Origin: a virus
IMG/VR virus record: IMGVR_UViG_3300046616_000262
Span: 1-34,803 of that record
DNA length: 34,803 nucleotides
Direction: 5' to 3' (one strand)
Shown here: positions 6,373 through 27,977 of the stretch, in pieces
Position numbering within the stretch: the first letter of the stretch is position 1
How the letters are laid out: each line of letters begins with the position of its first letter
Translations under genes and position numbers: made by a program
The notes under the pieces: generated by a model
What the model saw: the letters and a program-made list of their open reading frames with translations, nothing else
Databases searched by the model: none
Told to the model about the DNA's origin: nothing

Positions 6373-6384
6373 TTACGTCGTCCG

Positions 6385-7728: not shown

Positions 7729-7753
7729 TCCCCATCACCGAGAAGGAAAACAC

Positions 7754-8263: not shown

Positions 8264-8317
8264 CCCCCTGCCGTCCGCCTCCAGGTGGACGGCCTCCCCC
8301 CATCCAAAGGAACCATC

Positions 8318-11357: not shown

Positions 11358-11366
11358 GGAGTACCT

Positions 11367-11783
11367 ATGCTGATGTCTCTTGACCAATTCGTGTTTGGCA
11401 TGTCCACGCTGGCCCACCAGGAGCTGCAGCGACAGACCCAATGGAAGCACGCCAGCAATGCCCGCGTGGGTGCCCGCAACGGTCGCCAGTTCACCGGACC
11501 AGGCGACGACACCATCACCATTTCCGGCGTGCTGGTGCCGGAGCTGGCCGGCAAGCTGGCGTCCCTGGATGACCTGCGCGCCATGGCCGACAAGGGCCAG
11601 GCCTATGTGCTGGTCGACGGGGCCGGGACGGTGTACGGCGCATACCTCATCACCGGGATGCACCAGACCGGATCCAACATCGGCAGAACGGGCGTGCCGC
11701 GCCGGGTGGACTTCTCCATTACCCTGGAGCGCACCGACGACAACCGGGCCAGTTCGATGGCGCAGAGCAGGAGCCGGCCATGA
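11367..11783 (+). CDS. U: Tail terminator/completion protein gpU
   Basis: The 138-residue product is a P2 gpU homologue (about 159). gpU caps or completes the tail end and helps join tube to baseplate. The family features are Phe-Gly-x-x-Thr-Leu-Ala-His-Gln-Glu-Leu-Gln-Arg near residues 12-25, the Trp-Lys-His-Ala-Ser segment, and the C-terminal Asp-Phe-Ser-Ile-Thr-Leu-Glu-Arg. It starts 9 nt after T behind AAGGAG and overlaps D by 4 nt. A second ATG two codons downstream is possible. Confidence 0.92.
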   Translation: MLMSLDQFVFGMSTLAHQELQRQTQWKHASNARVGARNGRQFTGPGDDTITISGVLVPELAGKLASLDDLRAMADKGQAYVLVDGAGTVYGAYLITGMHQTGSNIGRTGVPRRVDFSITLERTDDNRASSMAQSRSRP

Positions 11784-12820
11784 ACGCGCACAGCGCCGGC
11801 TTCACCGTTACGCTGGACGGGCGCGACCTGACCAGCGTAATCGACCCCAGGCTGATGCGCCTGTCGATCCGCGAATGCCGCGCCGACGAGGCGGACACGC
11901 TTGACCTGGTGCTGGACGACAGCGACGGCATGCTGGAGATTCCCAAGCGCGGCGCCGTGCTGTCCGTGGCCATCGGCTGGAGTGGCCAGGCGCTGGTGCC
12001 GAAGGGCTCGTTTACCGTCAACGAGGTGGAGCACGCTGGCACGCCGGACACCATCACCGTGCGCGCCCGCAGCGCGTCCATGACCAAGGGCATGGGCCAG
12101 CGCCAGGAGAAAAGCTGGCACGACCAGACCATTGGCGATATGGTGCGCACCATCGCCGGGCGCCACCAGCTCACGCCCAAGGTGGGCGACCAGCTGGGCA
12201 AGATAAAAATCCCGCACATCGACCAGACCCACGAAAGCGATATGTCGTTCCTGACGCGCCTGGCGCGGCGCTATGACGCCGTGATGACAGTGAAAGAGGG
12301 CAACCTGCTGTTCCTGCCGATCGGCCAGGGCTTGACGATGAGCGGCCAGGAGCTGCCCGCCATCGAGCTGACGCGCCGGGATGGCGACCGCCACCGCTAC
12401 CACATTTCAGAGCGCGAGAACTACAGCGCGGTGCGCGCCTACTGGCACAGCAACGGCGAGAAGAAGCGCCATACCGTGGTGGTGGGCGGCGAGGACAATC
12501 ACAACGTCAAGGTGCTGCCGGAAAACTACGCCAGCCAGGCCGAGGCCGAGGCGGCCGCCACGGCCGAATTTGAGCGCACCAGGCGCAGCCAGGCCACGCT
12601 GAACTACACCCTGGCCATGGGCGAGCCTGCCCTGCGGCCGGAGGTGCCCGTGGCCGTTTCCGGCTTCAAGCCGGAGATTGACGACACGGACTGGCTGGTG
12701 CAGCTGGTCACGCACACCTTGGACGATTCTGGCGGCTACACCTGCGATCTGGAGCTGGAAGTGATGGACGACCCGGTCACGAAGCGCCACCGTTCCAATT
12801 TCCGCAAGGGCGGCAATTAG
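11780..12820 (+). CDS. D: Baseplate hub protein gpD (late control D family)
   Basis: The 346-residue product matches P2 gpD (387), a hub protein related to T4 gp27 and VgrG that carries the spike gpV. The Ser-Ile-x-Glu-x-Arg...Ala-Asp-x-Leu-Asp-Leu-x-Leu-Asp-Asp segment (residues 27-51) and the central Ser-Asp-x-Ser-Phe-Leu-Thr-Arg-Leu-Ala-Arg-Arg-Tyr-Asp-Ala segment (about 153-168) are characteristic. It is the last gene of the FI operon and is followed by a strong terminator. Confidence 0.94.
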   Translation: MNAHSAGFTVTLDGRDLTSVIDPRLMRLSIRECRADEADTLDLVLDDSDGMLEIPKRGAVLSVAIGWSGQALVPKGSFTVNEVEHAGTPDTITVRARSASMTKGMGQRQEKSWHDQTIGDMVRTIAGRHQLTPKVGDQLGKIKIPHIDQTHESDMSFLTRLARRYDAVMTVKEGNLLFLPIGQGLTMSGQELPAIELTRRDGDRHRYHISERENYSAVRAYWHSNGEKKRHTVVVGGEDNHNVKVLPENYASQAEAEAAATAEFERTRRSQATLNYTLAMGEPALRPEVPVAVSGFKPEIDDTDWLVQLVTHTLDDSGGYTCDLELEVMDDPVTKRHRSNFRKGGN

Positions 12821-12891: not shown

Positions 12892-12911
12892 AAACAACAC
12901 AACTGTTGTTT
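12892..12911. promoter_or_regulatory. Upstream operator dyad of hicAB
   Basis: AAACAACA (12892-12899) and TGTTGTTT (12904-12911) are perfect inverted arms around CAAC. The dyad lies just upstream of the hicAB promoter and resembles the second dyad at 12929, so it is a likely secondary HicB site. Confidence 0.65.
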
Positions 12912-12928
12912 GTCATCCAAAATAAACA

Positions 12929-12968
12929 CAACACAAGTGTTGATAATTAAACAGATGTGTTTTATAAT
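12929..12968 (+). promoter_or_regulatory. hicAB sigma-70 promoter with overlapping operator
   Basis: A -35 TTGATA (12940-12945) and a consensus -10 TATAAT (12963-12968) are separated by 17 bp. The perfect dyad CAACAC-AA-GTGTTG (12929-12942) overlaps the -35. Binding there by HicB would block the promoter, the usual autoregulation of hicAB. It is the clearest housekeeping-type promoter I see in the window, suggesting expression in the dormant state. Confidence 0.85.
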
Positions 12969-12997
12969 AGCTTCACTGATTAACGAAAAGGAGGCGT

Positions 12998-13177
12998 ATG
13001 AAATACAGCGAGTTCCGGCGGTGGCTGGAACGGCAGGGAGCAACATTCACCCCCGGCAAAGGCAGTCACCACAAGGTTGTTTTGAACGGTAAGCGATCCG
13101 ATTTCCCCGACCACGGCAGCAAAGAAATAGGCAAGGGACTAGCGGAGAAGATCAAAAAAGACCTAGGCCTGAAGTAA
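12998..13177 (+). CDS. hicA: HicA family mRNA-interferase toxin
   Basis: The 59-residue product has the HicA double-stranded-RNA-binding fold pattern: an N-terminal helix, the core Gly-Ser-His-His-Lys-Val (residues 22-27) with the catalytic His (probably His24), and a C-terminal helix ending Lys-Lys-Asp-Leu-Gly-Leu. HicA toxins cleave mRNA and stop growth unless bound by HicB. The ATG follows AAAAGGAGG at ideal spacing. Toxin precedes antitoxin, as usual for hicAB. On an extrachromosomal prophage this would act as an addiction module that kills or arrests plasmid-free daughters (inference). Confidence 0.93.
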   Translation: MKYSEFRRWLERQGATFTPGKGSHHKVVLNGKRSDFPDHGSKEIGKGLAEKIKKDLGLK

Positions 13178-13178
13178 G

Positions 13179-13198
13179 AAAACCCCGAAAGGGGTTTT
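13179..13198 (+). terminator. Hairpin between hicA and hicB (attenuator)
   Basis: An 8-bp perfect stem AAAACCCC / GGGGTTTT is closed by a GAAA tetraloop right after the hicA stop. The T-run is part of the stem, so it may end some transcripts and let others reach hicB, or protect the hicA message. Confidence 0.65.
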
Positions 13199-13245
13199 CC
13201 GACTCGCTGCACATACACTCTCTCATACCTTGAAAGGAAGAAACT

Positions 13246-13665
13246 ATGTTGAACTACCCTGTAACCCTGACCCCCGACACCAACAACACAGTCTTGGTCG
13301 GCTTCCCCGACTTCCCGGAGGCCAACGGCGTGGGTGACAACGTGGACGAGGCGCTACATGACGCGGTTGATGCGCTCATCACAGTCGTGGACATGTACTT
13401 TGACGACCGCCGCCCGGTGCCGCTTCCATCCGCGCCGGATGCAGGCCAGTACACCGTCGCCCTGCCTGCGTTGGCAACGGCCAAAGTGCTGCTGTGGAAT
13501 GAAATGCTCAAGCAGCGTCTGCGCAAGGCCGATCTGGCCCGCAAGCTGGACGTGCACCAGCCGCAGGTCGACCGCCTGTTCGACCTGCGCCACTCGTCCA
13601 AGGTGGAGCAGGTGGAGCAAGCCGCCATCGCTCTGGGCCGCCGCCTGAACGTGGAGCTGGTATGA
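13246..13665 (+). CDS. hicB: HicB family antitoxin and autorepressor
   Basis: The 139-residue product has the degraded RNase H-like HicB fold at residues 1-60, with Thr-Val-Leu-Val-Gly-Phe-Pro-Asp-Phe-Pro-Glu-Ala and Ala-Leu-x-Asp-Ala-Val-Asp-Ala-Leu. A C-terminal helix-turn-helix follows at about 85-130, containing Lys-Ala-Asp-Leu-Ala-Arg-Lys-Leu-Asp-Val-His-Gln-Pro-Gln-Val. It neutralises HicA and should repress the dyads upstream of hicA. It starts behind AAAGGAAG, so it can be translated strongly even if hicA readthrough is partial. The stop overlaps the next gene. Confidence 0.93.
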   Translation: MLNYPVTLTPDTNNTVLVGFPDFPEANGVGDNVDEALHDAVDALITVVDMYFDDRRPVPLPSAPDAGQYTVALPALATAKVLLWNEMLKQRLRKADLARKLDVHQPQVDRLFDLRHSSKVEQVEQAAIALGRRLNVELV

Positions 13666-13829
13666 GCAACGCCCTGGCATACCTCATCGAACTGGTCGAG
13701 GACGGCATGGAATACCCGGACGCCGAATTCAAGGCAGCACGCAAATTTCAAGTGCCGGCGGATGAACTGCGGGACGATTACGACCGGCTAATGGGCGCGC
13801 GACTTGGTCTTCGAGCACAGTTCATGTGA
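13662..13829 (+). CDS. Small acidic protein coupled to hicB
   Basis: The 55-residue product starts on an ATGA overlap with hicB. It is helical and acidic in its first half (Leu-Val-Glu-Asp-Gly-Met-Glu-Tyr-Pro-Asp-Ala-Glu-Phe), with Phe-x-Val-Pro-x-Asp-Glu-Leu-Arg-Asp-Asp-Tyr-Asp. This resembles small proteins next to HicB-type antitoxins that look like fragments of DNA-binding or antitoxin domains. I do not recognise a family. Tight coupling suggests a third component or modulator of the module, though a translated remnant is possible. Confidence 0.6.
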   Translation: MSNALAYLIELVEDGMEYPDAEFKAARKFQVPADELRDDYDRLMGARLGLRAQFM

Positions 13830-13863
13830 CTATGCGTTTCCATCAACAACTTAGGAGACACAC

Positions 13864-14097
13864 ATGGCAAAAGTTTTGCGCTTCTGGACCATTCAGGGCA
13901 GCGACGGCAAGACCTACATCGTGGAAGAAGTGGAAGTGCCCGGCCCGATAAGCCGGCCACTCAGCGGTGTGGCCCGCGCGTTGTCCACTGGACAGGTCGA
14001 GTATGTCCTGGCCGATGGCACCGACTTATTCGACGACACGCCGGGCATGTGGGAAACGCCATGGGGGGCGATGCTGAAAAAGCCCATCGACCTCTAA
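13864..14097 (+). CDS. Hypothetical small protein
   Basis: The 77-residue product starts behind TTAGGAGA. Its composition is acidic and beta-rich, with an N-terminal Arg-Phe-Trp-Thr-Ile-Gln-Gly-Ser-Asp-Gly-Lys-Thr-Tyr-Ile-Val-Glu-Glu strand pair and a Leu-Ala-Asp-Gly-Thr-Asp-Leu segment near residue 50. No family is recognised. It is followed directly by a terminator, so it ends the hicAB-led transcription unit or forms a short unit of its own. Confidence 0.65.
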   Translation: MAKVLRFWTIQGSDGKTYIVEEVEVPGPISRPLSGVARALSTGQVEYVLADGTDLFDDTPGMWETPWGAMLKKPIDL

Positions 14098-14107
14098 GAA
14101 CGAGCCG

Positions 14108-14132
14108 GCCGCGTTGCCGGCGCGGCGTTTTT
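14108..14132 (+). terminator. Terminator after the hicAB-led unit
   Basis: A 6-bp GC stem (GCCGCG at 14108-14113 and CGCGGC at 14121-14126) is followed after one base by TTTTT. It lies 10 nt after the stop at 14097. Confidence 0.8.
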
Positions 14133-14154
14133 AACTTTATGGGGCGACATAATC

Positions 14155-14421
14155 ATGCAGAGTGTCACTATCGACACGGCCAAGACCCTGGTGGGGTCCG
14201 CCACCGTCACGCGCGCCATCGTGCAATGCTTTGACGGCCGCCGCTGGGCCATCGTGCTGCGCGGCCGCGAGGAATATGTACTGCGCTCCAAGCGCGAGAG
14301 TCCCAAGGCTTACGCCAGGGTGGAAACCGCCCTGGATGAATTGAAGGGCATGGGTCTGCGCCATGCGGAGGTGGACTTTACGAAGTGGCACCGCGACCAG
14401 ACCGCGCTGGGGGACGTATGA
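14155..14421 (+). CDS. ParC-like plasmid partition-associated protein
   Basis: The 88-residue product resembles the small ParC-family proteins of beta- and gammaproteobacterial plasmids. It has a Ser-Val-Thr-Ile-Asp-Thr-Ala-Lys-x-Leu start, a central Trp-Ala-Ile-Val-Leu-Arg strand, a Leu-Arg-Ser-Lys-Arg segment followed by a helix, then Leu-Lys-Gly-Met-Gly-Leu-x-x-x-Glu-Val-Asp near the C-terminus. The assignment rests on remembered family pattern, not a search. It stands 5.9 kb from parA, so it is not part of the par operon. It overlaps the next gene by 4 nt. Such a gene is unusual among P2-like phages and supports plasmid ancestry. Confidence 0.55.
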   Translation: MQSVTIDTAKTLVGSATVTRAIVQCFDGRRWAIVLRGREEYVLRSKRESPKAYARVETALDELKGMGLRHAEVDFTKWHRDQTALGDV

Positions 14422-14717
14422 AGTACAGCTATACGATCACGCCGCGCCCGGCCGAGCTGGGCGGCGGCTGGCGGCTACGGCTGCTTGAGGACGGCGAGGA
14501 AGTCGGCGGCGGCGTGTTCCCTGTGGAGCAGGACGAGGCCGCCGGCATGGTCTGGTGGAATGGTCTGCAGGAGCGCGAGCGGGCGTGGTGGCTGGAGCGT
14601 GCTGTGGAACGCGGCGCGTTAGGCACGGCCGCAGATGGCTACCTATCGTATCTGCTGGCCGAGGCGCACGCCGACGCGGAAGATACGGCCTGCGAATGGC
14701 TGGATAGTCGGGAGTAA
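14418..14717 (+). CDS. Hypothetical protein coupled to the ParC-like gene
   Basis: The 99-residue product starts on an ATGA overlap. It is acidic and Trp-rich, with an N-terminal beta unit (Gly-Gly-Gly-Trp-Arg-Leu-Arg-Leu-Leu-Glu-Asp-Gly) and a C-terminal helical Trp-Leu-Glu-Arg-Ala...Ala-Glu-Ala-His-Ala-Asp-Ala segment. Comparable small Trp/Ala proteins accompany ParC-like genes on plasmids and integrative elements, in my recollection. Its function is unknown. It faces the repressor gene across a two-way terminator. Confidence 0.65.
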   Translation: MKYSYTITPRPAELGGGWRLRLLEDGEEVGGGVFPVEQDEAAGMVWWNGLQERERAWWLERAVERGALGTAADGYLSYLLAEAHADAEDTACEWLDSRE

Positions 14718-14724
14718 GGGGGAA

Positions 14725-14749
14725 AGCCCTGGGCGCAATGTCCAGGGCT
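14725..14749. terminator. Bidirectional terminator between convergent units
   Basis: A perfect 8-bp stem AGCCCTGG / CCAGGGCT with a 9-nt loop sits between the stop at 14717 on the plus strand and the repressor stop at 14764 on the minus strand. The T-runs are weak on both sides, with TTTCCCCC on the minus strand. Confidence 0.6.
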
Positions 14750-14763
14750 GAGAAGGGAAAGAA

Positions 14764-15453
14764 TCAGCGCACCGACTGCACGGAGGCATGGCAGTAGCCA
14801 ATGAACTCGATGCGCTCCACGTCTTCGCGCGGCACCACATCGACGGAATAGGCCGGATTGTCGTTCGACAGGCGCACCGAGCCGTCCCACATGCGCTGGA
14901 CGCGCTTGAAGCGCACCGTGTCGGCATCGCGGAAGCGCACCAGGTACACGCCGTCCGAATCGCGCGGGCGGCGATCCACCACCACCATCTGGCCATCCTG
15001 AATGGCCGGGATCATCGAATCGCCCGCTGCGCGCACCATCACAGTGTCATCGACGGTCAGGCCTTCCTGGGCCAGCCACAGGCGCGGCACCTTCCAGGCG
15101 CCGTCCTTGCTGGTCGAATGGAAGGTGGCCATGTCCAGAACCGGCAGATCCACATAACCCGGCACCTCGCCCACATCTTCCAGAATAATGCCGGCTACAC
15201 CAGGCGGCACCACTTCGGCTTCAACCAGCTCCGGCCCCGTACCACGATTGAGGATCAGCCAGTCCAGGCTGATGTTGTGCTGCAGGGCGATCTGGATGGC
15301 TTCGGCGATCGGCACCATGCCGCGCGCACGCCAGCCAGCGGGCGTACTACGGCTCTTGCCGAGGTAGTTGGCCAGCTCGTCATCCTTAGAAAAACCCAGC
15401 ACCTTTTTCATCCGGTCGATTATTTCTTGAACGAAGATCTGTTTTGTTTGCAT
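14764..15453 (-). CDS. CI-type lysogeny repressor with LexA/S24 peptidase domain
   Basis: The 229-residue product has a CI-type helix-turn-helix at residues 15-70 (Asp-Glu-Leu-Ala-Asn-Tyr-Leu-Gly-Lys-Ser...Trp-Arg-Ala-Arg-Gly). An S24 self-cleaving peptidase domain follows, with Gly-Asp-Ser-Met (nucleophile Ser146) and Arg-Phe-Lys-Arg-Val (Lys183). Ala87-Gly88 is a plausible cleavage point, as in LexA. P2 C repressor lacks a peptidase and is not SOS-inducible, so this control is lambda-like. It would hold the divergent early genes at 15622 onward silent and release them on DNA damage through RecA (inference). Confidence 0.92.
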   Translation of the reverse strand: MQTKQIFVQEIIDRMKKVLGFSKDDELANYLGKSRSTPAGWRARGMVPIAEAIQIALQHNISLDWLILNRGTGPELVEAEVVPPGVAGIILEDVGEVPGYVDLPVLDMATFHSTSKDGAWKVPRLWLAQEGLTVDDTVMVRAAGDSMIPAIQDGQMVVVDRRPRDSDGVYLVRFRDADTVRFKRVQRMWDGSVRLSNDNPAYSVDVVPREDVERIEFIGYCHASVQSVR

Positions 15454-15517
15454 ATGTAGATTTTAAGATTGCGATTCATCGACGAAAAGACTGTACGGAG
15501 CCGGGAGTAGAGCGTAG

Positions 15518-15610
15518 AATTTTACGTCACGCAACAAATATTTACGTTTCCACACCAAAACTCACGAAACGTAATTAATTCTCACACATTCTCACGCATT
15601 GTAACGAACA
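15518..15610. promoter_or_regulatory. Divergent early control region with operator-like repeats
   Basis: The gap between the repressor and the Cro/Cox-position gene contains TTACGTTTC (15542-15550) and GAAACGTAA (15566-15574), perfect 9-bp inverted arms 15 bp apart. Further TTACGTCACG and TTGTAACG variants flank them. Two CTCACRC repeats lie at about 15581-15597. The shared TTACG core is the probable binding element of the repressor, its opponent, or both. I cannot place promoter hexamers with confidence. Confidence 0.65.
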
Positions 15611-15621
15611 CAGACTAGGAA

Positions 15622-15798
15622 ATGAAGACTGAAAGCACAAAAGATCGTCGCGTCCCGATCCCGCTGACCCAGGCAGAAGACGAGCAGCTTGAGCAAATCC
15701 GCAAGGATGAAGCCCGCAGCCGGCAGTCCATGGCCGGGATTATCTACCGGTTAGGCCTGAAAGCCTATAAATCTCAGCAGCAGCCGCAGCCAAATTGA
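15622..15798 (+). CDS. Small ribbon-helix-helix protein in the Cro/Cox position
   Basis: The 58-residue product follows CTAGGAA and is divergent from the repressor, where P2-like phages place cox or cro. The pattern is ribbon-helix-helix: a basic tail, a short strand Arg-Arg-Val-Pro-Ile-Pro-Leu-Thr, helix Glu-Asp-Glu-Gln-Leu-Glu-Gln-Ile, then Ser-Met-Ala-Gly-Ile-Ile-Tyr-Arg-Leu-Gly-Leu. It probably represses the repressor promoter during lytic growth. P2 Cox also serves as excisionase, a task with no purpose here because no integrase is visible. Confidence 0.72.
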   Translation: MKTESTKDRRVPIPLTQAEDEQLEQIRKDEARSRQSMAGIIYRLGLKAYKSQQQPQPN

Positions 15799-15848
15799 CA
15801 ATAGTAATAACAAGGCCGGGGGGCTTTTTATTACTCAACCAGTTAAAT

Positions 15849-16103
15849 ATGAGCCTGCGAATCATTATCCGTTGTCCTCACTGTAAAGAGCGCGTCGTCG
15901 CCCGTAGCAGTCAGGAAAAGACCGCCACCATGCGCGAAATTACGTACCAGTGCCTGGATCCGGAATGCGGCTACACCTATGTGGCTTCGCTGGAAATCGT
16001 GCGCGGCCTATCCCCTTCCGGCAAGCCAAGCGGCGCCGTGCGCGTGCCCATGTCCCAGCATATCCGGGAGCGTGTCATGCAGCAGATGCAGCTGGAGATT
16101 TAA
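15849..16103 (+). CDS. ogr: Ogr/Delta-type late gene activator
   Basis: The 84-residue product matches the Ogr/Delta family of zinc-binding activators (P2 Ogr is 72 residues). It has Cys-Pro-His-Cys (residues 8-11), a Thr/Gln spacer, then Tyr-Gln-Cys-x4-Cys-Gly-Tyr-Thr-Tyr (about 34-43). These proteins contact RNA polymerase alpha and activate late promoters from a dyad near -55. P2 keeps ogr after D; here it sits in the early operon just behind the Cro/Cox-position gene, so late activation is tied directly to early transcription. The start at 15849 is set by the family N-terminus. Confidence 0.9.
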   Translation: MSLRIIIRCPHCKERVVARSSQEKTATMREITYQCLDPECGYTYVASLEIVRGLSPSGKPSGAVRVPMSQHIRERVMQQMQLEI

Positions 16104-16122
16104 CACAGACCGAACTGAGCCT

Positions 16123-16458
16123 ATGTCTATCAATGCCCTTGCCTGCAGCGCCATGAGTTTCCTGCGGGGCCATGAAGCCGAACACCTCACCCCTGATCTG
16201 CCGCGCCTGGCCGACCGCTGTATCGCGCACCTGGTCGCCACTTGCGCCGTGTCCCATGCCGCGGCGCACATCGCCACCATGCAGGCCATGGGCGAGCTGG
16301 AGGCCCGCCACTGCAAGGCCAGCATCGACTGCACCCGCACCACCAGCTTTACCCTGTTCCTGAACGACGAACAGGGCCGCCCGCTGGTGATGACGGTGGC
16401 CGAGCTGGTCCACCTGGTCAGGGAGGCCAAGCCGTTGATGCGACCCACTCCAGGCTGA
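16123..16458 (+). CDS. Hypothetical early protein
   Basis: The 111-residue product follows ogr by 19 nt. It is mostly helical with several Cys and His residues (His-Cys-Lys near 63, Asp-Cys-Thr near 69) and ends with a beta-helix unit containing Gly-Arg-Pro-Leu-Val-Met-Thr-Val-Ala-Glu-Leu-Val. I recognise no family. The place between ogr and the primase suggests a small replication or take-over factor. The ribosome site is weak (CTGAGC), so translation may depend on readthrough from ogr. Confidence 0.65.
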   Translation: MSINALACSAMSFLRGHEAEHLTPDLPRLADRCIAHLVATCAVSHAAAHIATMQAMGELEARHCKASIDCTRTTSFTLFLNDEQGRPLVMTVAELVHLVREAKPLMRPTPG

Positions 16459-16561
16459 CCCAATCCCAAAGAAACACCACGCTTTGCTGCTGCGCTTGTC
16501 GCCGCGGCTAAGCCCTTTTCACGTTTACGAACTGGCAAAGACCGGAAAAAGACCCCTAAAA

Positions 16562-19315
16562 ATGGCCTCGATTGACGAACTCAAACGCCTCATTGACCTG
16601 CGCGACCTGGCTGACCGCCTGGGCCTGAAACAGGGCAAGGGCGGCGACGACGCCCTGTATCACTCCCCGCATCACCCGGACAAAAACCCCTCGCTGTCCA
16701 TCTTCGTGAATCACCCCAAGCACGGCACAGGCTGGAAGGACTGGAGCAGTGACGAGGGCGGATCCTGCGTCGACCTGGTCATGTACGTCAACGGCTGCAC
16801 GCTGGCCGAGGCCATGCGCTGGCTGCACGAAACCTACGCCATCCCGTTCAGCACGCCCGACCGCAAGGACCAGCCGAAGGAGCCCAAGAGCCGCGCCGAA
16901 TACATCGCGGACAAGGCGCTGGCCGAGCGCGAGAAGTGCCGCGCCTACCTGAACGGCCGTGGAATCAGCAATGAAGCCATCAACGCCGCCTTCCGCGCCA
17001 ACACGCTGGGCTACAACGACTGGCACAGCGACACGAAGGCACCCGGCAACGTGGGGCATGGCGGCCCTGGCGTGGCCTTCATTGTGCATGCACCAGGTAC
17101 GCGCCGCGTGGTGGCGGTGGACATGCGTTTCTTCGATGCCGAGCTGAATGGCGGCGTCAAGACGCAATGCCAGGGCGAAAAGGACAGCTATGGCTGGACG
17201 GCGGACCCACGCAAGCTGGAACGCGCCGAAACCGTCTATATCGTGGAAAGTCCGATCAACGCGCTGTCGATCGACACGTGCGATAAGCCGCGCGCGGCCG
17301 CCTTCGCCATTCGCGGCATCGCCAACCTGCGCCTGATCGACTGGACGTTCCTGCGCGGCAAGCACGTCACCCTCTGCCTGGACAACGATCAGCCCTTCCC
17401 CGAAGGCCACCACCGCGCCGGCCATCGTCCTGGCCCCGAAGCAATGTGGGAGCTGTACGAAATCCTGACCGCCCTGAACATCAGTGCCCTGCTGGTGGAC
17501 CAGGCTGGATGGGAGAACGACAAGGGCGAGCCCATCAACGATGTGAACGACTACCTGCAGGCGCACGACGCCCGCAAGCTGTCCAAGGCGCTGGACGAGG
17601 TGGAGCCGTGGCTGATCCCGGGCCTGCCTGGCGAAGCGGGCACCATGGGCAAATCCCGCCTGTACCTGCCGGCCCACGACTTCGCGCAATACTGGCGCTA
17701 CCGCGTGCGCCCCGACTTCACCTACTACGTCAAGCGCAAGGCCGACGACGAGGAGGACATGCCGCAGTTTGAGGATCTGTGCGGTTTTCGGGTAGCCTCC
17801 CTGTCCCGCGTGACGGTGGCCAGCGCCTCGTCCACCATGACCGGCGACGCTGACCCCTCCCCCGCCATCTTCTTCTCCATCACGGTGCAGACCGCGCGCC
17901 ACGGTCCGCAGCTGGTGCGCGATGTGATGACCGACCGCCAGGTGCATAACCTGGCGCAGTGGGCCCAGTTTGGTCCGATCTACGAGCCGAAACGCTTCTC
18001 CCGCATGCTGAACATCATGGAACGCACGGCTCACCTGGGCGCGCGCAATGCGGCCAATTTCGTCGGCCTGGCATGGCTGAACGGTCGCCTTGCCGTCAAT
18101 GAAGGTCCGGACTGCTACTTCACGTCGCCGGAGCAGCAATGTCCTTACTCCACCCTGACATTCCCGTCCGGCCAGGTGCAGGACGCCGCCAAGGTGATCC
18201 GCGCCTACCAGACCACGTTCCTGGAGAACGCCGCGGCCATCCCCCTGGTATGGGCGCTGGGCGGCCACCTCAAGGCCATCCTGGGCTTCTGGCCACACAT
18301 CACCATCCAGGCCGACAAGGCTGCCGGCAAGTCCACGCTCACCAAGGCCCTGGAGCGCACCCTGGCCATCACGATGTTCTCCGGCCAAAGTCTGGAATCG
18401 GACTATCGCCAGCTGACCACCATCTCCCACACCAGCCACCCGGTGGGCTGGGAAGAACTGAGCGCCCGCAAGCAGGAAGTGATCGACAAGGCGGTGGGGC
18501 TGCTGCAGGAAGCCTACCAATACACCGTGACCAAGCGCGGCGCCGCCATGACGCAGTACATGCCGTCCGCCCCCGTGCTGCTGGCCGGCGAGGACGTGCC
18601 CGTGCGCAGCCTGCTGGGCAAGCTGGTGCGCACCGACCTGAACGGCAAGAAGAACGCCAAGCTGCCGGCGGATCTGCCCCGCTTCCCCCTGCGCCAGTGG
18701 CTGCAGTTCCTGGCCGATCTGAACCGTACCGACGTGCTGGCCAAGTACGAGGAAATCCTGACCTACGTCATGCGCCATAGTCGCGGCGCCGCCGGCGACG
18801 ATGGCGCTACCCGCATGGCTGGCAACTACGCCGCCATCCTGCTGGCCTGGCGCTACCTGACCGAGTTTGCCGGCGTGGACGGCCGCGAAGGTAACTTCGG
18901 GCAGGATCTGATCGCGCAAATGAACGCGCACCTGTCCGAATCCACACAGGACCGCTCGCCATGGGTGTGGATCATGGAAACGGTCCTGTCCGAAATGGAC
19001 GCCGGACGCTTCCACCACCCCAACCGCTTCGACCCGGTGGACGGCGAGGCCTGCCTGCTGATCCGCCCGGCCCACATCATCGACCACTTGGCCACGTCCA
19101 CCCATCTGCGCGAGAAGTGGAACGGCCTACCGGTCAAGTCGCCAAACGTGTTCAAGAAGCAGCTGCGCCAGGCCGGCGTGATCCATGGGGAAGCCGAGTA
19201 CGAGCGCACGATCGGCGGCAAGCGCGTGTCGCACCTGGTGGCGCTTAGCCTGAAAGAGCTGGCCAGGTTCGGCCTATCAGTTGCGGTGCGCAAAGACCCG
19301 CACGAGAACAACTAG
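16562..19315 (+). CDS. Primase/ATPase replication protein (TOPRIM plus Walker-type helicase)
   Basis: The 917-residue product has three parts. Residues 25-80 resemble a CHC2 primase zinc finger, but Tyr-His-Ser-Pro-His-His-Pro-Asp-Lys replaces the usual cysteine motif, so zinc binding may be altered. Residues about 222-275 form a TOPRIM core, with Tyr-Ile-Val-Glu-Ser-Pro-Ile-Asn-Ala-Leu and a later Leu-Asp-Asn-Asp. The C-terminal half has a Walker A ending Gly-Lys-Ser-Thr near 589-592, consistent with a helicase. It occupies the replication slot that P2 fills with the rolling-circle A protein, so replication is probably theta type, more like P4 alpha. An ATG start is preferred over a TTG at 16484. 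Confidence 0.88.
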   Translation: MASIDELKRLIDLRDLADRLGLKQGKGGDDALYHSPHHPDKNPSLSIFVNHPKHGTGWKDWSSDEGGSCVDLVMYVNGCTLAEAMRWLHETYAIPFSTPDRKDQPKEPKSRAEYIADKALAEREKCRAYLNGRGISNEAINAAFRANTLGYNDWHSDTKAPGNVGHGGPGVAFIVHAPGTRRVVAVDMRFFDAELNGGVKTQCQGEKDSYGWTADPRKLERAETVYIVESPINALSIDTCDKPRAAAFAIRGIANLRLIDWTFLRGKHVTLCLDNDQPFPEGHHRAGHRPGPEAMWELYEILTALNISALLVDQAGWENDKGEPINDVNDYLQAHDARKLSKALDEVEPWLIPGLPGEAGTMGKSRLYLPAHDFAQYWRYRVRPDFTYYVKRKADDEEDMPQFEDLCGFRVASLSRVTVASASSTMTGDADPSPAIFFSITVQTARHGPQLVRDVMTDRQVHNLAQWAQFGPIYEPKRFSRMLNIMERTAHLGARNAANFVGLAWLNGRLAVNEGPDCYFTSPEQQCPYSTLTFPSGQVQDAAKVIRAYQTTFLENAAAIPLVWALGGHLKAILGFWPHITIQADKAAGKSTLTKALERTLAITMFSGQSLESDYRQLTTISHTSHPVGWEELSARKQEVIDKAVGLLQEAYQYTVTKRGAAMTQYMPSAPVLLAGEDVPVRSLLGKLVRTDLNGKKNAKLPADLPRFPLRQWLQFLADLNRTDVLAKYEEILTYVMRHSRGAAGDDGATRMAGNYAAILLAWRYLTEFAGVDGREGNFGQDLIAQMNAHLSESTQDRSPWVWIMETVLSEMDAGRFHHPNRFDPVDGEACLLIRPAHIIDHLATSTHLREKWNGLPVKSPNVFKKQLRQAGVIHGEAEYERTIGGKRVSHLVALSLKELARFGLSVAVRKDPHENN

Positions 19316-19324
19316 GGAGCACAC

Positions 19325-19570
19325 ATGCCGCAATCTTGCATCAGCTGCCGGTGCTTCACGGTCAAGCACCGGACGCAGCACGAGCGAAGCGACAAGGCCA
19401 TGCGCGCCCAAGGCTTCGGGCGCTGCGCCCTGGAGGATATGCCAGGGCGCTATGTGTCGGCCGTCGCGCCGCGCCAGTGCAACAAGCACGACCCTATCCA
19501 ACCTGACCTGGTGCAGCAGCGCCAGGCCTACCTGGCCCAGCAGCACCAGATTTATCTGACCACCCCCTGA
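19325..19570 (+). CDS. Small cysteine-rich protein
   Basis: The 81-residue product starts 9 nt after the primase behind AGGGAGC. Cysteines at residues 5, 8, 10, 34 and 52, with a Gly-Phe-Gly-Arg-Cys centre and Arg-Gln-Cys-Asn-Lys-His, suggest a small zinc-binding fold. Similar short proteins are common beside phage replication genes. The C-terminus is a Gln-rich helix. Function unknown; a DNA-replication accessory is inferred from coupling. Confidence 0.68.
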   Translation: MPQSCISCRCFTVKHRTQHERSDKAMRAQGFGRCALEDMPGRYVSAVAPRQCNKHDPIQPDLVQQRQAYLAQQHQIYLTTP

Positions 19571-19580
19571 AAGGAATCAC

Positions 19581-19913
19581 ATGAGTACGACTCCGGCACA
19601 GACCACGCCCCCCGTTATGAAGAAAAAAGTTCGGGTTACGACCGTGAAAGAGTTTGAGATTGAACTTACTCCGTCCATGCTGGGCCGCATGTCGGAGGCC
19701 GAGTACCTGGAATCATTCAGGAGCGGCCTGTGGCACATCGACAGCATGGAGGATGTGGTGATGTACGCGGCAAAGATGGCAGCAATGTACGGCGGCGGGT
19801 ATCAGCACGATGGCCTGGGCTTGCTCGATACCAGGAACACAATCTACCCGCGCGTGCCGGATGTGAAGTACCACGAGCTTGATGAGGAAACCGAAACGGA
19901 ATTCATCGACTAG
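19581..19913 (+). CDS. Hypothetical acidic protein ending the early operon
   Basis: The 110-residue product follows AAAGGA 10 nt after its neighbour. After a Thr/Pro-rich tail it shows a Lys-rich strand (Met-Lys-Lys-Lys-Val-Arg-Val-Thr), then helices Glu-Phe-Glu-Ile-Glu-Leu-Thr-Pro and Glu-Ala-Glu-Tyr-Leu-Glu-Ser-Phe-x-Ser-Gly-Leu, and an acidic C-terminus. The pattern occurs in small phage proteins of unknown function. It is the last gene before the strong terminator shared with the par operon. Confidence 0.68.
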   Translation: MSTTPAQTTPPVMKKKVRVTTVKEFEIELTPSMLGRMSEAEYLESFRSGLWHIDSMEDVVMYAAKMAAMYGGGYQHDGLGLLDTRNTIYPRVPDVKYHELDEETETEFID

Positions 19914-19920
19914 ACAGCAA

Positions 19921-19951
19921 AAAGGCCACCGTTCTGGTGGCCTTTCGCTTT
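19921..19951. terminator. Bidirectional terminator between early and par operons
   Basis: A perfect 10-bp stem AAAGGCCACC / GGTGGCCTTT with a GTTCT loop is flanked by A- and T-rich bases. It separates the rightward early operon (stop 19913) from the leftward par operon (stop 19962). Confidence 0.92.
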
Positions 19952-19961
19952 AGTGACCTGC

Positions 19962-20285
19962 CTACTTCCGCTTCGCTTTTTCCTCATCAATCATTCTCCG
20001 CATGGCCATGCCCGTGGCAGCCGCCCGGCTCAATCCCATGTTAGCGGCAAGCTGGTCGAACTCTTCCAGGATGCCCGGATCGAGCGTCATCGTGACAGGT
20101 TCCTTGCGCCTGCGCAGAGCGCGCGGCAAGGCAGGGGCAATCTCTGCGGCGACTGCTGGTGCAGCCGCAGGCGCTACGGGCGCTGCTGGCTTCTCGTCCG
20201 GCGCGTTGCCGATGAAGGCGGCGGCCTGTTCCTCTGAAAGCGCGGGCCTGGTCGGCTTCGTGGGCATTTTCCTTTGCTGTGTCAT
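19962..20285 (-). CDS. Ribbon-helix-helix partition partner (ParB/ParG-type)
   Basis: The 107-residue product has a basic, Ala/Pro-rich disordered N-terminus and a C-terminal ribbon-helix-helix (about 62-104). The latter holds Pro-Val-Thr-Met-Thr-Leu-Asp-Pro, Leu-Glu-Glu-Phe-Asp-Gln-Leu-Ala and Leu-Ser-Arg-Ala-Ala-Ala-Thr-Gly-Met-Ala. This layout matches centromere-binding partners of short ParA ATPases, whose flexible tail stimulates ATP hydrolysis. It starts at 20285 behind AAGGA, 73 nt after parA; longer starts would run through the repeat-rich gap. Together with ParA and the TTGATGT repeats it should form the partition complex. Confidence 0.82.
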   Translation of the reverse strand: MTQQRKMPTKPTRPALSEEQAAAFIGNAPDEKPAAPVAPAAAPAVAAEIAPALPRALRRRKEPVTMTLDPGILEEFDQLAANMGLSRAAATGMAMRRMIDEEKAKRK

Positions 20286-20358
20286 TAATGTAATCCTTAT
20301 GTTTTCTTGATGCTTGTTAAGCATCATGTTGATGTACACATGATGCAATTACGATGTG
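20286..20358. repeat. TTGATGT-type repeats between parA and the RHH gene
   Basis: The 73-bp AT-rich gap holds TTGATGC, GCATCATG, TTGATGTA, ACATGATGC and ACGATGTG elements, including the dyad GCTTGTTAAGC. The core matches the repeats upstream of parA and at 21519-21619. They probably bind the RHH protein. Confidence 0.7.
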
Positions 20359-21015
20359 TTAAGACTGGCTGTAATCCAGAATGTACTGAACCAGCTTGGC
20401 CACCTCGTCACGGGCCTTCGCGTCCACCGGCTTGTATTCATGGATGTTCAGGCCGGCGGCGCTGGCGCGGTCGATGGCCACCCGGTTGCCCAGGCGAACA
20501 GGCGCGACCGGGAAGCCCATAGATTCAATGTCGGCAATGGCCGTGGCGTTGTCTGAGTTTTCGCCATCGTCCGCCTTGGCCATGTTCAGGAACGGAATGA
20601 CCTTGATATCACGCAGCTCCTGGGCTTCCTTGACCAGCTCGACCATGTTCTCGTATGCCCACAAGTCATAAGCGCGCGGGGCAAACGGCACCACCAGCAC
20701 GTCCGTGACTGTCAAAGCCGCGCGCAGCGCGCCGGAATCGCGCGCGCCTACGTCGATGATGGTGTGGTCGAACTGTGGCGACTGCAGGCGCACCTGGGCG
20801 CGCAAACTTCCACCGTCCGATAGCTCTGTGGCCGCGATCCCTGGGAAACCCGCGTTGAGGCGGTTTGTCAGCGACAGCAACGCCGATGTTTGTTTTTTGT
20901 CACCATCGACAACCCACGGGCGCAATCCCTGCAGAGCAAAGCCGGTCGAGATCTGGACGGTGCTGGTGGACTTACCGACGCCGCCCTTGGTGTTTGCTAC
21001 AGTAAAAATTGTCAT
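20359..21015 (-). CDS. parA: ParA-type partition ATPase (short, type Ib-like)
   Basis: The 218-residue product has the deviant Walker A Lys-Gly-Gly-Val-Gly-Lys-Ser-Thr (residues 10-17) and the Asp-Gly-Asp strand that follows (37-39). Its Walker B strand is Thr-Ile-Ile-Asp-Val-Gly-Ala (Asp88). There is no N-terminal DNA-binding domain, so it belongs with short ParA proteins whose partner does the repression. ParA forms gradients on the nucleoid that move plasmid copies apart. Repeat arrays lie on both sides of the gene. Integrating P2-like phages do not need it. The start follows GGTAGGG. Confidence 0.93.
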   Translation of the reverse strand: MTIFTVANTKGGVGKSTSTVQISTGFALQGLRPWVVDGDKKQTSALLSLTNRLNAGFPGIAATELSDGGSLRAQVRLQSPQFDHTIIDVGARDSGALRAALTVTDVLVVPFAPRAYDLWAYENMVELVKEAQELRDIKVIPFLNMAKADDGENSDNATAIADIESMGFPVAPVRLGNRVAIDRASAAGLNIHEYKPVDAKARDEVAKLVQYILDYSQS

Positions 21016-21098
21016 ATCATCCCTACCTTATGTTGATATCAAGTTGATTTTAACTATGCGTCAAGAATACATCAAGACTGCATTGCATTTACATTACA
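21016..21098. promoter_or_regulatory. Repeat-rich region upstream of parA
   Basis: This AT-rich gap contains TGTTGATATCAAGTTGAT near 21030, ACATCAAG near 21069 and ACATCATT near 21097, the same core as the centromere-like array. It probably includes the parA promoter and its RHH-bound operator. Confidence 0.65.
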
Positions 21099-21461
21099 TC
21101 ATTCAAACTCTGGGTCTTGCCCGGCCGCGAAGGCTTCGACGGTCTGCAGCACGGCCTGATATGAGTCCAGCAACTCATGCACGGCTTGGCGAACATGCAC
21201 CACCTCACCGCGTTCGCAGTCTTTGCTGTGCAGCTGCGCCGCGATGGTCTTGGCCTGAGTCCAAGAAAAGCTGCGGGCCAAGTGCGGCTTGCAGGGACGC
21301 GGGTTGAAAACATGCAAGCCATCCGGCGATGCGTCAAAGGTCAGGCAGACTTTCTTGAAGCGCACCACATAACCGCCGGCCAGCTCCATGCTGTCCAGGG
21401 CAGTCAGCGCCTTCTCATACTCGGCAATTGCGTCTTTGGTTTCTTGCAGCAGGTCGTTCAT
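21099..21461 (-). CDS. Hypothetical protein upstream of parA
   Basis: The 120-residue product starts at 21461 behind GAGAGGGG and reads toward parA, so it could be the first gene of the par transcript. It begins with an amphipathic helix (Leu-Leu-Gln-Glu-Thr-Lys-Asp-Ala-Ile-Ala-Glu-Tyr-Glu-Lys-Ala), then a beta unit with Phe-Lys-Lys-Val-Cys-Leu-Thr-Phe-Asp-Ala. A Phe-Ser-Trp-Thr-Gln-Ala-Lys segment and a C-terminal helix follow. No family is recognised. Being enclosed by two repeat arrays, it may be under the same RHH control. Confidence 0.68.
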   Translation of the reverse strand: MNDLLQETKDAIAEYEKALTALDSMELAGGYVVRFKKVCLTFDASPDGLHVFNPRPCKPHLARSFSWTQAKTIAAQLHSKDCERGEVVHVRQAVHELLDSYQAVLQTVEAFAAGQDPEFE

Positions 21462-21518
21462 ATCGGATCCCCTCTCGTCTATGCCACGCATTGGCAGGTT
21501 ATGGACTATGCACAAATC

Positions 21519-21619
21519 ACATCATACATACATCACCTATACATCAACTTAATGTATAAGTTGATGCAACAATACATCAACTTAATGTGTAATGCAAGTT
21601 GATGTATGTTTGATGTATG
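21519..21619. repeat. Candidate centromere (parS): clustered ACATCAA/TTGATGT dyads
   Basis: Two large perfect dyads are visible: CATCAACTT-N7-AAGTTGATG (21542-21566) and TACATCAACTT-N12-AAGTTGATGTA (21573-21606). Further ACATCA copies occur at 21519 and 21530 and TTGATGTATG at 21610. The array is AT-rich inside GC-rich DNA and shares its core with the two gaps around parA. Arrays of this kind are centromeres for RHH partition proteins. Confidence 0.8.
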
Positions 21620-21720
21620 GATTGCGCAACGACGAGCTGGCACCTGCGGCCGCCGGGCCAAGCCGGTTCTTGGGGCCGGGCGCCTACTTTTCCTTTGGCG
21701 AGGTACACACATCTCAAAAA
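21620..21720. other. Short non-coding spacer
   Basis: GC-rich sequence with an imperfect GCCGGGCCAAGCCGGTTCTTGG-type fold separates the centromere-like array from the iteron-like cluster. I see no gene. Confidence 0.5.
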
Positions 21721-21723
21721 ACC

Positions 21724-22100
21724 CGTGGATATGCCCCCGATTTTGAGCTAAGTCTTTGATTCTGGAGCAACTACCATCCACGGCAGGCACTCGGTTTTCC
21801 ACGAACTACCCCTGTTTTTCCACGGGTTTTGTTCCGGCCCCACCGCCCGGCCCGCCCGCTCTCTTCTTCTTCTTTCTTTAAGTTATTGAAAAGAAAGAAG
21901 AAATAGGGCAAGGAAGAAAAGAAGCCCAAGCGCACCGATCCACGGATTCCATCCTGTTTTCCACGACTTTTCCCAACTGCCTAAATTTTCATCCACGGAT
22001 TTTTCCAGTGGAAACAGGCATTTCCGTGGATTCCACGAAAACGTAAATTGAGCAAAATCAATAACTTAAGCCCGGATTTCGCGCAATCCACGAATCCACG
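21724..22100. repeat. Iteron-like cluster of TCCACG elements (candidate origin)
   Basis: Eleven copies of TCCACG (plus strand at 21777, 21798, 21819, 21939, 21960, 21992, 22032, 22087, 22095; minus strand at 21724, 22025) fall within 377 bp. Several extend to ATCCACGGAT or TTTTCCACG. The closest pairs are 8 bp (22087, 22095) and 21 bp apart (21777/21798/21819 and 21939/21960), about two helical turns. A palindrome TTTCCAGTGGAAA lies at 22002-22014 and an A/T-rich run at 21860-21905. Such phased repeats beside an AT-rich stretch are typical of iteron origins. Confidence 0.72.
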
Positions 22101-22104
22101 GAGT

Positions 22105-22331
22105 TTTCTCCCTATGCCTGCTTTTCGGACTCGATCGCTTCCCAGCCCTACACCTGGTGCGCAAAACCGCCCCTGCGCGCATCAATCCGCATCAATATCC
22201 GGCAGGCCCGAATGACTGGAAGCCTTACAGCTGGCTGCATCCGCGCAAAATCGCCCGGTGCATCATTTCCGAGGGGACGAAATAAGCCGGAGGCGTGGAG
22301 GGGCCTGCGAAATCCCGGAAAGGGGTAGGTC
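22105..22331. other. Non-coding stretch between iterons and hairpin region
   Basis: I see no convincing gene. The stretch contains a repeated CGCATCAAT (22179 and 22188), a purine-rich run near 22273-22310 and GGAAAGGGGTAGG near 22318, which looks like a ribosome site for the short reading frame at 22332. Confidence 0.45.
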
Positions 22332-22415
22332 ATGAGAAGCCGCCAGAGGCCCTACAAGCGCATCGTGGCGTCCGAGGTGGCTACGGCCGAGCTCGCAGCA
22401 AATAACCGCACCTGA
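22332..22415 (+). CDS. Very short open reading frame (possible leader peptide)
   Basis: A 27-residue frame begins with ATG 6 nt after AAAGGGGTAGG and reads Met-Arg-Ser-Arg-Gln-Arg-Pro-Tyr-Lys-Arg, ending in Asn-Asn-Arg-Thr. It is strongly basic at its N-terminus. The good ribosome site and its place directly before the structured region suggest a leader peptide, but chance is a fair alternative. Confidence 0.35.
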   Translation: MRSRQRPYKRIVASEVATAELAANNRT

Positions 22416-22439
22416 TGCGTTGTAGTGTGTCCTATTGGG

Positions 22440-22907
22440 ATTCCGCGCTAACGTTCAGCTCTTACCGCGCGCCCGTCGGCGCTTGGTTCCGGTCCCAATC
22501 GCGCTGCGCGCGACGCTAACGCGCCCCTCCGGGGTTGTGCCGGCTGCGTTACGAAGGTTTTCCCATGAATGGGAAACCCAGCCCACGCGGTGGCCAGCGG
22601 CCAGAAATGGGCCGTTGCCTGACAAACGGGGTTAGCCTCGCTGTGAGATGAGGTGATGAGCTGGGCGCCGCGTCCCGTGAGGGTGCGGGGTTTCGTCCAG
22701 CGTGAACGGGGCGCAGGTGCCCGTAGCCCTCGCCGGGGTTTGGCGAGGGTGAGCCGGTAGGAGCCGGGCCGGTAGGCCTTGGCCGCTTGCGGCCAACTCC
22801 GTAGCCCGGCGAAGGTCTGCGCAACCGGCCCTTGACCGTTGATCTGAGCATGTTGAGGTTATAAGGCCGGCCTGCCGGCCGTACCTTGTGCGCCGCGAAG
22901 CGGTGCA
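22440..22907 (+). ncRNA. Candidate large structured RNA or folded origin region
   Basis: About 470 bp hold at least nine hairpins and no credible gene. Clear stems are TAACGC/GCGTTA (22517-22522, 22546-22551) enclosing CCCC-TCC-GGGG, TTTCCCAT/ATGGGAAA (22559-22576), CAGCGGCC/GGCCGTTG (22595-22617) and CCC-GTGA-GGG (22674-22683). Others are ACGGG/CCCGT (22706-22724), CCCTCGCC/GGCGAGGG (22727-22749) and GCCGGGC/GCCCGGC (22763-22810), the last enclosing TTGGCC/GGCCAA. The set ends with GGCCGGC/GCCGGCC (22865-22880) and TGCGCCGC/GCGGTGCA (22889-22907). G-U pairs and a GNRA loop favour RNA. Strand and ends are uncertain; a single-strand origin or transfer origin is the alternative. Confidence 0.5.
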
Positions 22908-23026
22908 GTCATTTTCCTTCTTGGCTAGTGATTGTGGTGGTGGTTGAGTAACAACTTAATAGGGCAAATACTCGTAGGAAATCGTCAGAAACCCGCGCCA
23001 GTGCTGAGTCTTGACGATTCCGTGGT
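22908..23026. other. Spacer upstream of the dyad cluster
   Basis: Mostly unstructured, with TAATAGGGCAAATAC near 22959; a related ATTAGGGCAAATTC occurs near 23251, shortly before the rep gene. I see no gene. Confidence 0.4.
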
Positions 23027-23066
23027 TACGCATGACGGTGCGTAGAACTACGCATGGCGGTGCGTA
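23027..23066. promoter_or_regulatory. Paired TACGCA-N6-TGCGTA dyads upstream of rep
   Basis: Two 18-bp dyads with the same arms and 6-bp spacers lie at 23027-23044 and 23049-23066, 22 bp apart, two helical turns. A third copy is at 23199-23216. Equal spacing points to one dimeric DNA-binding protein, plausibly the RepL-like product or a copy-number regulator. Confidence 0.75.
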
Positions 23067-23198
23067 GTCTTGCGCATCTGGGTGCGGTGGTGATGACGTT
23101 GAGCGAAAGCCCAGGCACTTATTCTTTCGGTCATGTGAGCAATGACGCCGACAGTGAACGAAAGAGTAAGAGCTTGTCTTTGCGGAGAGACGAAAAGC

Positions 23199-23216
23199 TA
23201 CGCACTCGAATGCGTA
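23199..23216. promoter_or_regulatory. Third TACGCA-N6-TGCGTA dyad
   Basis: The same 6-bp arms and 6-bp spacer recur here, extended by one base on each side (CTACGCA/TGCGTAG). It is the copy nearest the rep gene and could overlap its promoter region. Confidence 0.75.
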
Positions 23217-23282
23217 GTGTCATACACATTAGCGGTAAACCCATACGGTGATTAGGGCAAATTCACGACGTCGCGATGCAAA

Positions 23283-23300
23283 ACCCATGTTATCATGGGT
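23283..23300. promoter_or_regulatory. Dyad in the rep leader
   Basis: ACCCATG and CATGGGT are perfect 7-bp arms around TTAT, 33 bp before the rep start. The centre TATCAT is -10-like. It may be an operator over the rep promoter or a leader hairpin. Confidence 0.5.
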
Positions 23301-23332
23301 GCATTGCAATGTTTATTTGGGCGGGGGAGTTT

Positions 23333-23896
23333 ATGGGAACTGCAAAAAATATAACGTTGCCGGCACAGGACGAGGCGGTGGCAGATGGTCGCGGAAACAA
23401 GTCCCAAGGCTGGCTGCAGTCGGATAAGGCCGCGCACCAGGCAATGTGGAAACTTGGGATCAAGCATCCGATGGCGTTGGCCGTGCTGCACTTCATGGTT
23501 TCCAAGTTGTCACGCGGCACAAATGGCGTGGTTATCAGCGCGGCCGCGCTCGCCAAACAGATGGGGATTGCACCCAGGACTGTACAAAACACCATCTCCG
23601 TTTTGCGGGATTGCAAGTTTGTTCAGGTCTTGAAGTCCGGAAATGTCAATGTTTACATCATCAATTCGCGCGTGGCGTGGCAGGGCGACCGCGGCATGCG
23701 CTATGCCTCTTTCAATGCGCAGATATTGGTTGATGAGTCCGAACAGGCCCAACCTGTTGACGAGCTGATAGAGCAAGCCAACGAGCTGATGCAGGTTCCG
23801 GTGATGCACTTCAATGAAGAAATACAATTGGATGCCATCGACCCACCGCCGCCGCCACGGCAGGGGAGTTTGCTCCCGCCGGAGTCAGACGAGTAA
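23333..23896 (+). CDS. RepL-like plasmid replication initiator (winged helix)
   Basis: The 187-residue product has the layout of RepL-type plasmid initiators. Residues about 38-60 form a helix before the DNA-binding domain. A winged helix-turn-helix follows at about 68-102 (Ala-Ala-Leu-Ala-Lys-Gln-Met-Gly-Ile-Ala-Pro-Arg-Thr-Val). The next strand block reads Val-Asn-Val-Tyr-Ile-Ile-Asn-Ser-Arg-Val-Ala-Trp, then Tyr-Ala-Ser-Phe-Asn-Ala. The tail is acidic and Pro-rich. Start 23333 follows GGGGGAG; an in-frame ATG at 23276 lacks a site. Firmicute RepL is the best-known group; relatives occur in Gram-negative phages and plasmids. A transcription regulator is the alternative. Confidence 0.75.
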   Translation: MGTAKNITLPAQDEAVADGRGNKSQGWLQSDKAAHQAMWKLGIKHPMALAVLHFMVSKLSRGTNGVVISAAALAKQMGIAPRTVQNTISVLRDCKFVQVLKSGNVNVYIINSRVAWQGDRGMRYASFNAQILVDESEQAQPVDELIEQANELMQVPVMHFNEEIQLDAIDPPPPPRQGSLLPPESDE

Positions 23897-26827: not shown

Positions 26828-26873
26828 GGACGAAGCGTAGGGCCACGCGCGCGTGAGGGCATTAAGGCGCGGC

Positions 26874-26892
26874 TGTGCCCGGCGCCGGTACA
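26874..26892. promoter_or_regulatory. Ogr-type activator site between P and O
   Basis: TGTGCCCGGCGCCGGTACA is a near-symmetric TGT-N13-ACA dyad in the divergent P/O region. Reading toward P, a TCACGCGCGCG block follows 17 nt later, much like the block 16 nt after the other two sites. The symmetry and the single copy suggest one site may serve both the leftward P-Q and rightward O operons. Confidence 0.75.
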
Positions 26893-26927
26893 GCGTCCGC
26901 TCGTTGAGCCAGAGGGGCCGACAGGAC

Positions 26928-26962
26928 AACATGGCCATGGTCAACACCACTCAACCATGTTG
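26928..26962 (+). promoter_or_regulatory. Inverted repeat in the O leader
   Basis: CAACATGG (26928-26935) and CCATGTTG (26955-26962) are perfect 8-bp arms 19 bp apart, ending just before the GGAG ribosome site of O. A transcript hairpin here could limit access to that site. Confidence 0.5.
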
Positions 26963-27942: not shown

Positions 27943-27977
27943 CCAACTGCCCCCCAACAATTACAGGAAACACCACT

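Follow-up and report, generated by a model that had tools for sequence, protein, structure and literature searches.

How a P2-type phage with no recognizable integrase is maintained in its host is the question raised by IMG/VR virus record IMGVR_UViG_3300046616_000262, analysed here over its whole 34,803 nt (the window). Bases 1–127 are identical to bases 34677–34803, giving a closed circle of 34,676 bp with a G+C content of 63%; an exact 127-nt repeat fits the leftover that a k = 127 assembler would produce on a circular contig. The window represents a P2-like bacterial virus whose circular genome is complete and in which no tRNA genes were found. Beside its virion genes it encodes a ParA ATPase, a ribbon–helix–helix (RHH) protein, a RepL-type initiator and a HicAB pair, and we consider it very probable that the virus is a temperate P2-type phage (Peduoviridae) that lysogenizes as a low-copy circular plasmid. 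The observations behind this reading are gene content, circularity, the lack of the recombinases searched for, free circular relatives and the conservation of repeats. The features concerned are as follows.

1–127, no strand: terminal repeat, equal to 34677–34803; assembly overlap of a circular contig
12998–13177, plus strand: hicA toxin, 59 amino acids (PF07927, 48.3 bits, cut-off 27)
13246–13665, plus strand: hicB antitoxin (PF15919, 31.9 bits, cut-off 27; phrog_497, 8.6e-40)
19962–20285, minus strand: RHH partition partner, in a ParG-like position downstream of parA (RHH_1, 17.9 bits)
20329–21617, no strand: operator/centromere-like repeats TTGATGTA, starting at 20329, 21068, 21540, 21573, 21599 and 21610
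20359–21015, minus strand: ParA ATPase (phrog_164, E = 1.7e-38; CbiA and AAA_31 above cut-off)
21099–21515, minus strand: conserved gene upstream of parA (90% identical in Duganella sp. SG902, 36–61% in other relatives)
21702–22107, no strand: candidate lytic replication origin, comprising TCCACGGA repeats and an AT-rich tract; conserved in relatives
23027–23086, plus strand: three 22-bp-spaced dyads, candidate RepL iterons, with an inverted copy at 23201–23216
23276–23896, plus strand: RepL-type plasmid replication initiator (PF05732, 24.8 bits, cut-off 20.3; 42% identical to ORF44 of phage FLC5)

The plasmid-type genes that an earlier note had read from the sequence are all present by profile matches, with the RHH partner falling just under its cut-off. 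ParA is 95% identical in SG902 and 44% identical to gp40 of the P2-like phage KS14; the RHH partner is 93% identical in SG902 and 43–50% identical to its positional counterparts in FLC10 and KS14 (over a short stretch in KS14). Together they form a partition system in which ParA is clear and its partner is sub-cut-off yet syntenic. The initiator RepL exceeds its Pfam cut-off, and HicA adjoins HicB, as in a type II toxin–antitoxin system. A 60-amino-acid frame at 12910–13092, also considered as hicA, has no family match and was rejected in favour of 12998–13177.

The clustered dyads and iteron-like repeats described in the same note exceed the numbers expected by chance in the window and are conserved in relatives. 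The sequence TTGATGTA occurs seven times against 0.36 expected, and six of the seven copies surround parA; such a cluster has the form expected of a partition operator or centromere, at which the partition proteins would bind. Against 0.99 expected, TCCACGGA occurs six times (a count that includes one site twice, once per terminal repeat), with four copies at 21939–22102. The block at 21702–22107 is common to KS14, FLC10 and the integrase-bearing phage Carl1 and therefore tracks the primase rather than the plasmid initiator; we infer that it is a lytic origin. Three copies of TNCGCANNNNGGTGCG, spaced 22 bp apart, lie directly upstream of repL and are kept in relatives with RepL, and these dyads are likely to be the RepL iterons.

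Profile searches in six frames at E ≤ 10 found no match in the window to tyrosine recombinases (PF00589), serine recombinases (PF00239) or the P2 A protein (PF05840), in agreement with what had been noted from the letters; the same searches gave matches in control genomes, and no separate search was made for transposase or protelomerase families. The A replication protein and Int, both of which P2 itself carries and neither of which was found in the window, also have no KS14 counterpart in a published comparison (PMC3091744), so they do not define this branch.

Relatives in sequenced hosts point the same way. A RepL search recovered nine related loci in IMG/VR contigs, all adjoining P2-type virion genes. 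Duganella rivi FT55W and Duganella sp. SG902, reached through a DNA pattern from the intergenic region, carry the phage on contigs of 34,740 and 34,319 bp whose ends overlap exactly, by 127 and 95 nt, respectively, and the contig breaks fall inside tape-measure and capsid genes. SG902 has the same gene order as the window, with 84–89% nucleotide identity over most of the length (ParA, 95%; P, 92%). Two further contigs (35,079 and 38,894 bp), which lack terminal overlaps and are broken at other points, came from searching for ParA in 394 genomes belonging to the same family. Four Oxalobacteraceae assemblies, two of them closing exactly, hold the same gene set only as stand-alone 34–39-kb contigs cut at different genes, as extrachromosomal circles would appear. 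Searching these 394 genomes for the portal gave matches in 49; the top four (71–92%) are those four contigs, with one match per genome, whereas many of the matches at or below 69% lie far inside megabase contigs. Integration of P2-like prophages can therefore be recognized in this family, and the phage-plasmid clade of the window was not seen among them in this search. The earlier note had proposed a circular, integrase-less plasmid lifestyle, which the free contigs in four host genomes support, and had named homologues always found integrated as evidence to the contrary; the closest four homologues are found only free-standing.

The design itself has a precedent. KS14, described in 2010, is a P2-like phage that encodes ParA and a replication initiator but no tyrosine integrase; plasmid preparations yielded its DNA from five lysogenized isolates and not from control strains (PMC3091744). 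The earlier suggestion that a circular P2-type phage-plasmid would be unusual thus does not hold, and the comparison with P2-like collections that it recommended did yield plasmid-type relatives, KS14 and FLC5, but not a new design. KS14 (Kisquattuordecimvirus, Peduoviridae) shares with the window P2 virion synteny, the primase (63%), ParA (44%), the partner gene, the repressor, an initiator placed beside the portal and the lack of a tyrosine integrase. It differs in having a RepB-type initiator and a serine recombinase and in lacking hicAB, and the structured element described below was not found in it. FLC5, in the genus of KS14, encodes a RepL-like protein (42%) and ParA (45%) in the layout of the window; its genome is circular, 32,090 bp long and nearest to KS14 (PMC7815583). 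FLC10, of the same genus, has a window-like layout and core proteins roughly 39–74% identical to those of the window. The SG902 and D. rivi FT55W contigs represent the same type of phage-plasmid in cultured hosts, SG902 with a different initiator protein and D. rivi with a serine resolvase in place of hicAB. The window is a new lineage of a phage-plasmid kind already known from KS14. Among deposited plasmids, the Pseudomonas aeruginosa ‘plasmid’ pPHPALO552 (CP075758.1) is an integrase-bearing P2-like phage entered as a circular plasmid.

Several points weigh against a plasmid lifestyle: the RHH_1 score is slightly under the Pfam cut-off of 20.5 bits; the free contigs come from the hosts of relatives, not from the window's own host; the plasmid state of the window is predicted from sequence; and circular contigs can also arise from replicating or excised phage. 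The last of these is the basis of the best-surviving alternative, namely that the window is the circular form, excised or replicating, of a P2-like prophage that integrates by means of an unrecognized or host recombinase. P2-like phages usually integrate, and PLSDB contains a circular P2-like element, pPHPALO552, that carries an integrase; the window, however, has no integrase or resolvase match, the portal match occurs once per host genome and on a free contig, ParA, RHH and Rep are present and KS14 sets a precedent, so that we regard this explanation as improbable. Less probable again is a P2-like phage with an obligately lytic life cycle whose plasmid genes are relics: although the record is a virus contig and lytic growth also forms circles, the CI repressor, hicAB, ParA and Rep frames are intact, and relatives reside in cultured, sequenced strains. 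A chimeric or misassembled contig joining phage and plasmid would account for the mixed gene content, but its probability is close to nil given that SG902, an independent isolate assembly, has the same order at the identity stated above and that the rep/virion junction is common to nine IMG/VR relatives.

The phage side of the genome is equally complete. The full P2-type virion set that had been reported is confirmed: V, W, J, I, H, FI, FII, E, T, U, D, Q, P, O, N, M, L, X, R and S all have PHROG or Pfam matches, and so do the lysis genes (two holins, an endolysin and the spanins Rz and Rz1). Most P2-type genes have KS14 homologues in the same order at roughly 40–73% identity, as well as homologues in other P2-like phages, and the gene order Q-P-O-N-M-L-X ... 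FI-FII-E-T-U-D plus Ogr is that of the Peduoviridae. The P2 cos core has no match in the window when up to 3 mismatches are allowed.

572–12820, plus strand: W, J, extra fibre genes, I, H, FI, FII, E, T, U and D (PHROG/Pfam)
14764–15453, minus strand: CI-type repressor with S24 peptidase domain (PF07022, PF00717; 40% identical to the KS14 repressor)
15795–16103, plus strand: Ogr/Delta late-gene activator (PF04606, 62 bits)
16484–19315, plus strand: primase-helicase (phrog_5629; 63–64% identical to KS14 and Carl1)
24039–25148, minus strand: portal Q (phrog_68, 2.8e-161)
25064–26950, minus strand: terminase large subunit P (phrog_3746, 5.8e-142)
26971–33336, plus strand: O, N, M, L, X, two holins, endolysin, Rz/Rz1, R and S (PHROG/Pfam)
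33357–34115, minus strand: N6/N4 DNA methylase, between S and V (PF01555, 97.4 bits)
34269–34803, plus strand: V, crossing the circle join (PF04717)

The primase-helicase is also present in integrating relatives. The methylase, on the strand opposite to S and V, is 63–76% identical in the four host-genome relatives, and no counterpart was found in KS14 or FLC10. Extra genes lie between J and I at 2187–3435, two of them (2486–3151 and 3154–3435) with tail-fibre profile matches; no counterparts of them were detected in KS14, FLC10 or the four relatives from host genomes.

For a phage maintained as a plasmid, these parts suggest a scheme in which binding, the replication and segregation roles, copy number and induction are predicted. 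RepL would start plasmid replication by acting on the iterons at 23027–23086. Segregation would be carried out by ParA and the RHH partner when bound to the TTGATGTA sites around parA; HicAB would stabilize the plasmid against loss, and the CI/S24 repressor would silence the lytic genes. On induction, Ogr would switch on the late genes, the primase would replicate from the second origin at 21.7–22.1 kb and the P/M terminase would package the DNA.

Comparison among relatives indicates how the plasmid module varies. SG902 lacks RepL; a 202-amino-acid protein in the RepL slot is 90% identical to its counterpart in genome G350, whose virion and ParA proteins are otherwise only 45–80% identical to those of the window. 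Judged from these sequences, the initiator slot is exchangeable while the remaining phage is conserved. The SG902 protein has no Pfam or PHROG family above cut-off, and a homologue of it has a sub-threshold RepL score (13.6 bits). The alternative initiator-like protein in the RepL slot lies at loci L061:8567–9175, L083:6727–7329 and L026:1024–1629. The integrating relatives Carl1 and Momento encode an integrase after the primase, at the site that par and rep occupy in the window and in KS14; by gene order, the rep/par block holds the integrase position of integrating relatives. The stretch from D to the repressor also varies: the window has hicAB there, D. rivi a serine resolvase (as does G350, by reading) and KS14 a serine recombinase. 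The D. rivi resolvase, located at L058:3359–3976 in the position of hicAB, may resolve plasmid multimers. In a tree the window falls in a clade separate from KS14 (support 85), and the branching of KS14 against integrase-bearing KL3/Momento, which bears on a single origin of the phage-plasmids of this group, has support of only 31–37. Only 4% of a 25-kb query aligns to KS14, at 70.7%, which places the window outside Kisquattuordecimvirus.

The non-coding region 22640–22915 upstream of repL is conserved in RepL relatives and contains a further element.

22718–22841, plus strand: structured element (RNA or single-stranded DNA hairpin cluster) with covariation; 109.5 bits with covariance model R1, in part a self-match, as the model includes the window copy

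The core of the region matches a Massilia forsythiae plasmid at 88% (Massilia plasmid match at window positions 22747–22813), and the core pattern is present in 14 stretches of viral contigs and 27 of bacterial genomes (mostly Burkholderiales), as well as on plasmids of Paracidovorax, Herbaspirillum, Eleftheria, Acidovorax and Paraburkholderia. One Massilia contig, 9,926 bp long and with ends that overlap exactly by 127 nt, carries the element, ParA and a Rep_3 initiator; its matches to window genes are confined to ParA and two small non-virion frames. The covariance model finds the element in 19 of 295 family genomes and did not find it in the KS14 and FLC10 stretches searched. At blastn sensitivity, the phage collection contained no match to it. 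Rfam gave no match at gathering score, a weak below-cut-off match at 22649–22694 lying outside the element, and a non-exhaustive literature search found no published description.

On a 20-pair structure, 29 copies form 95.1% standard pairs (78.8% in shuffles) with two-sided pair changes in 79 cells (18.9 in shuffles), values that kinship among the aligned copies can by itself lift above shuffles; none of 500 shuffles reached the observed pairing, two-sided change or covariation. The covariation score is 0.374, against 0.093 for shuffles and at most 0.057 for slid controls, which favour the structure because it was derived from the same sequences. A hairpin just upstream of the element is kept despite sequence change (mean stem 6.9 versus 3.9 in shuffles). 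One-sided changes occur in only 3 cells, so that covariation is almost strictly Watson–Crick; so few new G-U pairs would be uncommon in an RNA, which points to a DNA hairpin but does not prove one.

Plasmids may carry several copies: six in a pBPHYT01 stretch and three in a Herbaspirillum stretch, where they fall between a relaxase and the surroundings of ssb. Annotated copies are mostly upstream of opposite-strand genes, Eleftheria being an exception. In placement the element resembles the Frpo/ssi single-stranded DNA promoters and priming sites (PMC11541004), likewise structured and sometimes multicopy in conjugative leading regions near ssb, umuDC and methylase genes. Unlike them it is GC-rich and shows, by eye, no −35/−10-like motif in the conserved core, and no sequence relationship is demonstrated. 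By analogy, our leading though somewhat doubtful guess is that the family works on single-stranded DNA, either priming the second strand or serving as a single-strand promoter, and is common to phage-plasmids, small plasmids and conjugative Burkholderiales leading regions.

These results add Oxalobacteraceae and environmental samples to Burkholderia as sources of KS14-type P2-like phage-plasmids, and they show replication initiators swapping under a constant phage and a par/rep block where integrating relatives keep an integrase. If the proposed role is correct, the structured element would be a nucleic-acid part traded between two modes of transfer; as a testable link between phage-plasmids and conjugative plasmids, it is the part most worth following.

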